Shown here one piece after another: positions 38,323-39,903 of a stretch of 64,000 nucleotides of DNA; the first letter of the stretch is position 1, and every line of letters starts with the position of its first letter. The notes beneath the pieces were generated by a model that was not told the origin of the DNA, made no database searches, and saw nothing but the letters and a program-made list of their open reading frames with translations. Source of the stretch: Rhabdaerophilum sp. SD176 (GTDB lineage Bacteria; Pseudomonadota; Alphaproteobacteria; Rhizobiales; Beijerinckiaceae); assembly GCF_030143245.1 (NCBI RefSeq), contig NZ_JARJNS010000004.1, positions 124,001 through 188,000 of the forward strand. The letters are read 5' to 3'. The translations under genes were made by a program, and so were the position numbers.

Positions 38323-39903
38323 ATGGCGGAGCTGATGCTCTACAACACGCTGACGCGGCGCAAGGAGCGGCTGGAGCCGCTCGCGCTCCACCCGGAAACG
38401 GGTCTGCCGCTGGTGCGGATGTATGTCTGCGGCCCGACCGTCTATGACTATGCCCATATCGGCAATGCGCGCCCGGTCATCGTCTTCGATGTGCTGTTCC
38501 GCCTGCTGCGTCACCTCTACGGCGAGGATCACGTTGTCTATGCGCGGAACATCACCGACGTGGATGACAAGATCAACGACCGCGCCGCGCGGGACTACCC
38601 GGACCTGCCGCTCAACGAGGCGATCCGCAAGGTCACCGAGGGCACGAATGCGCAGTTCCAGGCCGATGTGGAGGCCCTCGGCTGCCTTGAGCCCACAGAT
38701 CAGCCGCGCGCCACCGAACATATCGACGGCATGCGCGCGCTGATCGACCGGCTGATCGCGCGCGGTTTCGCCTATGTGGCGGAAAACCATGTGCTGTTCT
38801 CGCCGGCGGCGATGGACGCGGCGAAGGGCCGCCTGCCGCGCTACGGGGCGCTCGCCAATCGCAGCCTCGACGAGATGATCGCTGGCGCGCGGGTGGATGT
38901 CGCGCCCTACAAGCGCGACGCCACCGATTTCGTGCTCTGGAAGCCGTCAAAGCCGAACGAACCGGGTTGGGAGTCGCCCGCCGGCATTCCCGTGCCCGGC
39001 CGCCCTGGCTGGCATATCGAGTGCTCGGCCATGTCGATGGCCAAGCTGCTCGAGCCCTATGGCGGTGGTCTTGCCTGCGATGATCCGCTGAAGAACACCT
39101 TCGACATCCATGGCGGCGGCATCGATCTCGTCTTCCCGCACCACGAGAACGAGATCGCGCAATCCTGCTGCGCCTTCGGCGCGGAGCGCATGGCCTCGAT
39201 CTGGATGCATAACGGATTCCTGCAGGTCGAGGGGCAGAAAATGTCCAAGAGCCTGGGGAATTTCTTCACGATCAATGAGTTGTTGGCGACCGAGAGTTTC
39301 GGTGGCAGGCGTTGGACAGGTGATGTCCTGCGATTTGCTATGCTGAAGACGCACTACCGACAGCCTATCGATTGGACAGAACAAAGTTTGATCGAGGGCA
39401 CGGCTGAACTTTTGAAATGGGCAAAGATTTCGGAAAGCGCGCCAAAGTGGGAGGAGCATCGTGATGACTATGTCTCACCAAGAGCAACTCCATACCCGGC
39501 ATACAAGCCTTCTCCTGAAATTCTTGAGGCGCTAAGCGACGATCTGAATTTGCCAGGGGTATTGTTCGTTCTACGTAAACACTATCGACGTGCTGCAACC
39601 GATGGAGTTACTCGAGAAGACGTTATCTTTGCGCAGGACGCAGCCTATCAATTGTGGGTGGATTGCGTGTTTCTGGGTATCGATCTCACGCGATTCCGCT
39701 CTTCAGAGCTTTACTTGGAGCGGCGTGATTTGAATGAGGTTTACATTGACTCCCTCATCAACGCCCGCCTTGCCGCCCGCGCGGCGAAGAACTGGGCGGA
39801 ATCGGACCGGATCCGCGATGAACTCGTCGCGCTGGGCATCGTGCTGATGGATGGCAAGGACGAGGCCGGCAACCCCGTCACCCGCTGGGAGGTCAAAAGG
39901 TGA
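38323..39903 (+). CDS. cysS: Cysteinyl-tRNA synthetase, with internal atypical segment
   Basis: 526 residues, longer than the usual 450-490. Zn-binding and HIGH region [17 protein letters not shown] (HIGN form), [21 protein letters not shown], and KMSKSLGNF (M at residue 307). The end has the usual [18 protein letters not shown] anticodon module. From about residue 316 to 476 the DNA is AT-richer and uses other codons (TTG, CTT, TTT, CAA, GTT) while the frame and protein family continue; native-looking sequence resumes at [20 protein letters not shown]. The enzyme should be functional. GNAT and cimA genes follow with overlapping starts. Confidence 0.95.
39270..39750 (+). other. Compositionally foreign block inside cysS
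   Basis: Hand count over 39361-39720 gives 177 G+C of 360 (49 percent), against 63-65 percent in 60-bp samples at 39001 and 39841. The shift starts just after the KMSKS codons and ends before the last 50 codons. There is no stop, frameshift or repeat at either edge. It looks like a stretch replaced by recombination with another lineage's cysS. Confidence 0.75.

Follow-up and report, generated by a model that had tools for sequence, protein, structure and literature searches.

The cysS gene of Rhabdaerophilum sp. SD176 raises the question of how a gene for a tRNA synthetase came to contain a low-G+C block with its reading frame intact. The gene lies in a 64,000-nucleotide stretch of DNA, hereafter the window, and all coordinates are those of the window. 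Genomes, genera and loci used for comparison are designated by G, g and L numbers respectively. The gene is divided into the following parts:

38323..39903, + strand: cysS, cysteine--tRNA ligase, mosaic, 526 aa (ORF, TIGR00435, PF01406, PF23493)
38323..39264, + strand: native 5′ part, catalytic domain up to KMSKSLGNF (aa 1-313, matching G179, G582 and G137)
39265..39751, + strand: replaced low-G+C block, comprising the post-KMSKS tail and the helical-bundle (DALR) segment (49.7% G+C; gap in the alignment with G179)
39373..39726, + strand: variable segment, core (aa 351-468), where relatives have Pfam DALR_2
39752..39903, + strand: native 3′ part with the anticodon-binding domain and the stop codon (PF23493; 67.1% G+C)

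Analysis of the base composition of cysS revealed a G+C content of 65.0% between 38323 and 39264, 49.7% between 39265 and 39751 and 67.1% between 39752 and 39903. The block had been noticed in an earlier reading of the letters alone (the sequence-only reading), and its hand count of 177 G+C in the 360 nt between 39361 and 39720 agreed with the computed 178. This value was 4.5 SD below the mean of the window's 360-nt tiles (n=177, mean 0.656, SD 0.037), and no tile had a G+C of 0.50 or less. Only two of 4236 overlapping 465-nt windows fell below the G+C of the block, both near 56.3 kb. The other lowest-G+C place of the window, 56251-56480, comprises in part the 5′-end of an ORF, together with the adjoining spacer. 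The change in codon choice that the same reading had described was seen in GC3, which fell from 0.84-0.87 upstream to 0.51 in the block and returned to 0.83 beyond it; the blocks of G179, G582 and G137 had a GC3 of 0.77-0.81. Its remark on unusual length also held, as the window CysS has 526 aa compared to 486 in G179, 486 in G582 and 482 in G137. The block itself is 155 aa in the window and 111 aa in these three genomes, a difference of 44 aa, and the segment ranged from 111 to 213 aa within the genus.

The cysS ORF contained no inner stop codons. The protein scored 404.5 bits against TIGR00435 (cut-off 340; aa 4-513), matched the class I catalytic domain (PF01406, E=5e-99) and carried PF23493 (CysS_C, anticodon-binding) at aa 475-514 with 33.9 bits (cut-off 23). 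Residues K306, M307 and K309 of the KMSKS motif were invariant across 60 sequences, and the DD(L/M)N motif, KMSKS and the reading frame persisted across block types. The predicted function of the enzyme is the charging of tRNA-Cys with cysteine. DALR_2 (PF09190), which TIGR00435 does not demand, had no match in the window CysS up to E=1 and was not detected in G166 or G192 either; it was above the cut-off in G153 and weak, just below the cut-off, in G179, G582, G137 and G580. The window's own genome gave a single CysS protein match, and at the DNA level the block matched once, its sole copy. No alternative copies of the segment (silent cassettes) were found elsewhere in that genome by a search that very divergent cassettes could escape. 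A second, milder variable stretch was present at aa 155-215 (38785-38967) and in the same part of the proteins of L145-L160; its two sequence classes, approximately 47-64% alike in the genus, did not follow the block types.

Seventeen genomes of the window's genus were compared. In a quick tree built from the conserved CysS parts, the window, G166, G179, G582 and G137 formed one close clade (SH-aLRT 100). The window and G179 shared 91% DNA identity over the 58.7 kb compared, in which 39287-39751 was the only stretch of at least 100 nt of the window that did not align; this count is of unaligned stretches of the window, and 58751-64000 lies outside the compared G179 stretch. DNA identity was about 90% on both sides of the block and was lost sharply at its edges, near the conserved KMSKS codons. 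Between the window and G179, G582 and G137, amino acid identity was 95-96% in aa 1-313, where 238-242 of 281-284 same-residue codons were also identical, and 94-98% in aa 477-524, which agreed with the earlier view that both gene ends are native. In the core (aa 351-468) it was 33-38%. The definitions of the parts vary between analyses, such that percentages for one pair shift slightly.

A codon test of the window against G179 showed that same-residue codons were identical in 4 of 28 cases in the core compared to 242 of 284 upstream (p=1.5e-14), and the genus-wide profile showed both synonymous and amino acid divergence to be limited to the segment. As codons differ even at unchanged residues, the block is not explained by a protein that evolved fast where it stood. 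Read from these alignments, with the change limited to the segment and the neighbouring DNA collinear, the segment was shown to be other DNA and not old DNA that had undergone fast protein change. The frame-keeping replacement proposed by the sequence-only reading is therefore strongly supported by the loss of identity, the codon test and the relatives with an ordinary block. The part that it had named as replaced, helical and anticodon, needed redrawing: the post-KMSKS tail and the DALR segment are included, and the anticodon-binding domain (PF23493, aa 475-514) is native.

The window block was also carried by G166, with 96% DNA identity over 39287-39751 and 96% amino acid identity in the core, and the high-G+C block was retained in G179, G582 and G137. 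With regard to the suggestion that the low-G+C block might be an old family trait, it is thus present in one sister species and absent from these three. The block of G026, a genome outside the close clade in the flank tree, grouped with those of G179, G582 and G137 (support 100), which makes the window/G166 block the likelier newcomer. The replaced type would be the high-G+C block that is still present in G179, G582, G137 and G026. Imported DNA would have entered through a double crossover within the conserved coding sequence on either side, in the case of the window in its common ancestor with G166, and the donors would have had a lower GC3.

Alignment of other genomes revealed the same local break in cysS. 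Within the window's genus it was found in G192/G580 and G581/G577, and in other genera (g42, g18, g34, g32, g12 and g29) in G161/G078, G151/G177, G072/G124, G142/G157, G183/G157, G176/G110 and G182/G195. In these pairs the DNA aligned through the gene and its neighbourhood except for the cysS block; in several of the pairs the far ends of the compared stretches were also unaligned, and some had small gaps in the spacer after the gene. Where they aligned within 140 kb, the genomes G151 and G177 were 96.7% identical, and G161/G042 and G161/G174 aligned straight through the block. A dispersed repeat of approximately 50-190 nt was present in several copies in the 140 kb of G151 and G177 (L498-L511). 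The copy beside cysS was considered and set aside, as it is positioned after the stop codon of the gene (G151).

The 232 CysS proteins compared (excluding the fragment from G436 and the duplicates L031, L037 and L040) gave 136 pairs whose N-parts shared 90% identity or more. Of these pairs, 48 had a core identity below 50%, 4 one of 50-65% and 84 one of 65% or higher, and at least 21 swaps were counted, in 15 of the 28 clusters of close relatives (103 genomes). In pairs whose N-parts were 65-80% identical the median for the core was 31%; swapped cores thus differ as much as the cores of other genera. In the codon test, 16 of 17 swapped pairs gave p<1e-4 and the remaining one, G195/G182, gave p=0.21; another of the 17, G115/G090, was still 60% identical in the core. 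Three unswapped control pairs gave p values of 0.016-0.058, and in two of the three the codon identity dipped slightly in the core. The swap rates are not unbiased and the pairs are not independent, since the sample was not random: the 79 other genomes of the family were chosen among the matches listed (192 of 199 family genomes matched), the 60 genomes of the order came from listed block alignments and are therefore nearer to the window's block than average, and the 80 named contigs were the best 80 of 590.

Named contigs supplied 2 of the 15 clusters with swaps, both compared at the level of the protein. These were a Roseovarius amoyensis/Lutimaribacter cluster (N-part 90% and core 30% identical) and a cluster of a Marivita MAG and an alphaproteobacterial MAG (96% and 39%). 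We take both to be Rhodobacterales, and the swap pattern would reach that order if the two clusters hold. Other named contigs joined genera of the sample at N-part identities of at least 90%: Bosea with g12, Devosia with g48 and Mesorhizobium with g104. By these last two assignments, swaps occur in Devosia-like genomes and not in the sampled Mesorhizobium-like genomes. The window's order was itself judged from named hits that included Bosea, Phyllobacterium and Bradyrhizobium. The sequence-only reading, which was partly supported, was right about the block and its replacement and too narrow about their reach.

The composition of the blocks was compared in the 124 genomes that had a close relative or several in the sample, of which 6 fell between classes and the window and G166 were counted as shared. 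The median difference in GC3 between block and upstream part was -0.247 for 38 unmatched blocks and -0.046 for 80 shared blocks (p=6e-12), and unmatched blocks were longer (101 aa compared to 87 aa, p=2e-5). The low GC3 of unmatched blocks fits import from lower-GC sources. For the window block, the best core match outside G166 among 234 other CysS was 32%. A search of 385 genomes of the class, which did not include G166, returned at E<=1e-6 the window itself only, and viral contigs, plasmids and phages gave no match to the core. The whole block matched 384 of 397 genomes of the order, mostly by alignments that covered only the initial 60-120 residues; identity in the three best was 47-50%. 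Among those listed, whole-protein matches reached at most 37% in phages and at most 50%, in the best segment, in viral contigs. A CysS relative was contained in 503 Klebsiella plasmid records. A plasmid-borne donor was tried as a lead on the basis of 624 plasmid records with a match, these 503 among them, and was set aside; in the one annotated E. coli record inspected the gene lies among ordinary chromosomal genes. Many viral contigs start or end with a cysS approximately 37% identical to that of the window, as if the prophages of one host group adjoin cysS.

Trees of the block were less decisive for the window than for G580. Holding the window and G166 with G179, G582 and G137 was not rejected (p-AU 0.52), nor was holding G192 with G580 (p-AU 0.29), and G151 and G177 grouped with a support of 63, which is not firm. 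The distant cysS that the sequence-only reading had proposed as donor is no more than plausible for the window: the best core match was 32%, and this tree does not place the block. In the block, G580 grouped with two genomes of the Bosea-like genus g12, G011 and G176; in the N-part it did not: placing the N-part with g12 was rejected (AU p=3.8e-25), as was keeping the block with G577 and G094, the grouping of the N-part (AU p=3.5e-5). As judged by the two trees, the segment was shown to have crossed between the genera while the N-part did not, and here the donor line is visible.

Other genes and groups served as controls. No such swapped segment was found in the MetRS of 15 genomes of the window's genus, and MetRS of the window and G179 was 87-100% identical at every 30-aa step. 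Two groups of the same class but of other orders, of 15 and 8 genomes, had no CysS swaps, and in them the core tracked the N-part; one mildly odd member, G978, had core identities of 47-55% in the pairs listed. Likewise, no swapping was seen in E. coli cysS, where 5373 of 5374 matching records were at least 95% identical, 52 of the 5426 genomes having no match. Coevolution with tRNA-Cys was rejected as the driver for the window, as tRNA-Cys was identical in the window, G179, G582, G137 and G166; it was found in 16 of 17 genomes in 3 versions, with one pattern match in the window's genome.

Of the three synthetases examined (CysRS, MetRS and SerRS), the last provided a second variable site. An alignment of serS from G151 and G177 revealed a low-G+C inner segment that was unaligned over 139 nt in G151 and 34 nt in G177. 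An ORF on the opposite strand in serS was considered as a further copy of the G151/G177 repeat and rejected; a unique low-G+C segment is present there instead. SerRS was obtained from 16 of the 17 genomes of the window's genus, with one cut by a contig end. Nine of the 16 (serS loci L517-L532) carried blocks of 51-95 aa at one site, between TAQLPKF...QF and WLIPT, with a GC3 of 0.32-0.54 compared to 0.72-0.89 upstream. In the 8 pairs compared among the nine, the blocks were 15-27% identical and the flanks 81-93%. The other seven, including the window (L527), shared a 51-aa block with a GC3 of 0.76-0.86. Comparison of seven of the nine blocks with Pfam and PHROG returned nothing better than E=0.016, the Pfam match being below its cut-off. 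The codon contrast reached p<0.05 in 4 of the 8 pairs on few residues, and import is for that reason only suggested in SerRS, which we regard as a probable parallel to the exchange of the CysRS segment.

Taken with the recurrence, the most satisfactory reading is that the post-KMSKS tail and helical-bundle/DALR part of cysS is an exchangeable segment, which has very probably been replaced repeatedly by recombination in the window's order. What maintains the exchange is a separate matter. It may be neutral, in that the helical segment would tolerate most homologous versions, the conserved flanks would recombine and the outcome would be fixed by drift. We consider this quite possible, if short of probable: it draws on the same evidence for recombination as the main reading, the segment is poorly conserved in general, as the 31% median above indicates, and evolution within one block type appears normal, as in the 96% identical cores of the window and G166. 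However, neutral exchange would not be expected to spare the MetRS of the genus, the remaining genes that aligned in the 58.7-kb comparison with G179, the CysS of the two other alphaproteobacterial groups and that of E. coli, and to find a similar site in a second synthetase.

Because diversity is concentrated in the CysRS segment and one SerRS site and not in MetRS, the diversity of the segment may, with less certainty, be kept by selection. A cellular or phage antagonist that touches both segments would then be the simplest candidate driver, although we are less sure of it. The sequence-only reading had also named escape from an inhibitor as a possible motive. Diversifying selection by such a putative antagonist (a toxin, a phage protein or a secreted inhibitor) contacting the helical segment of CysRS and the SerRS site is somewhat unlikely; the recurrence, the bimodality of core identities, the concentration in two synthetases and the orphan low-G+C blocks speak for it, and the absence of noteworthy Pfam or PHROG families from the window core and from seven of the nine SerRS blocks speaks against it. 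More doubtful still is a wider version, in which Hyphomicrobiales, and perhaps Rhodobacterales, would be engaged in a hidden arms race, the antagonist docking on the CysRS bundle and the SerRS site and low-G+C segments being imported from a shared pool. If this were true, essential synthetases would carry hypervariable cassettes, and the antagonist would be a phage protein, a contact-delivered toxin or a secreted peptide.

Hypermutation or very fast evolution of the segment in place, with no import, is improbable. The block tree allows the window and G166 to stay with G179, G582 and G137, and two of the three control pairs of one block type also had a slightly lowered codon identity in the core; against this, same-residue codons in the window core differ from those of G179 as in unrelated genes, only 4 of the 136 close pairs lie between swapped and unswapped, the window and G166 blocks are nearly alike and the block of G580 groups with a different genus. 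One accidental import on its own, or the repair of a damaged allele that the sequence-only reading had offered as one motive, is more improbable again; one event suffices for the window's clade, and the count of at least 21 swaps at this segment fits poorly with it. The notion that a mobile element or site-specific insertion (an intein, homing endonuclease or prophage remnant) left the block, for which the sharp edges near the KMSKS codons and the low G+C could be cited, is scarcely credible, as no mobile-element genes were found among the 20 ORFs around cysS (12 of ordinary chromosomal families, 8 of no family), 38900-40100 contained no inverted repeats and one imperfect 14-nt direct repeat, the block has a single genomic copy and its core had no Pfam or PHROG match of note, the check for inteins being by Pfam. 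Among the neighbours, a GNAT acetyltransferase ORF (39900-40412) overlaps the cysS stop codon and was not hypervariable in sister species.

Few proteins would be expected to be under tighter constraint than tRNA synthetases, and here whole segments were swapped, at least 21 times in the sample, between species whose neighbouring DNA is approximately 90-97% identical. The swaps and the parallel in SerRS point to a selective force, or a habit of recombination, that acts on the enzymes of translation and has gone unrecognised. Sister species with different versions of the segment offer a test system, and in these bacteria cysS and serS may be misleading markers of phylogeny. That coding segments recombine is known; in the titles and abstract openings of the literature searched, neither the concentration of this process in one synthetase segment across an order nor recurrent exchange of a cysS segment was found.

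The window protein resembles E. coli CysRS (PDB 1LI5, 1LI7 and 1U0B; query 4-512 against chain 2-453, E=2.5e-88) and has the same domain order, but is longer and poorly aligned around the block. Whole-gene horizontal transfer occurs in aminoacyl-tRNA synthetases and likewise places foreign synthetase DNA within a native genome, whereas cysS changes internally only, its ends and neighbourhood being native. The HsdS subunit of type I restriction systems exchanges its target-recognition domains and shares with cysS a hypervariable, exchangeable middle between conserved flanks, although HsdS is a non-essential specificity protein and CysRS an essential housekeeping enzyme. Mosaic penicillin-binding protein genes arise by interspecies recombination, and in them, as in cysS, homologous foreign DNA replaces part of an essential gene with the frame kept; the cysS case differs in that it involves no drug, a cytosolic tRNA synthetase and one segment in many genera.
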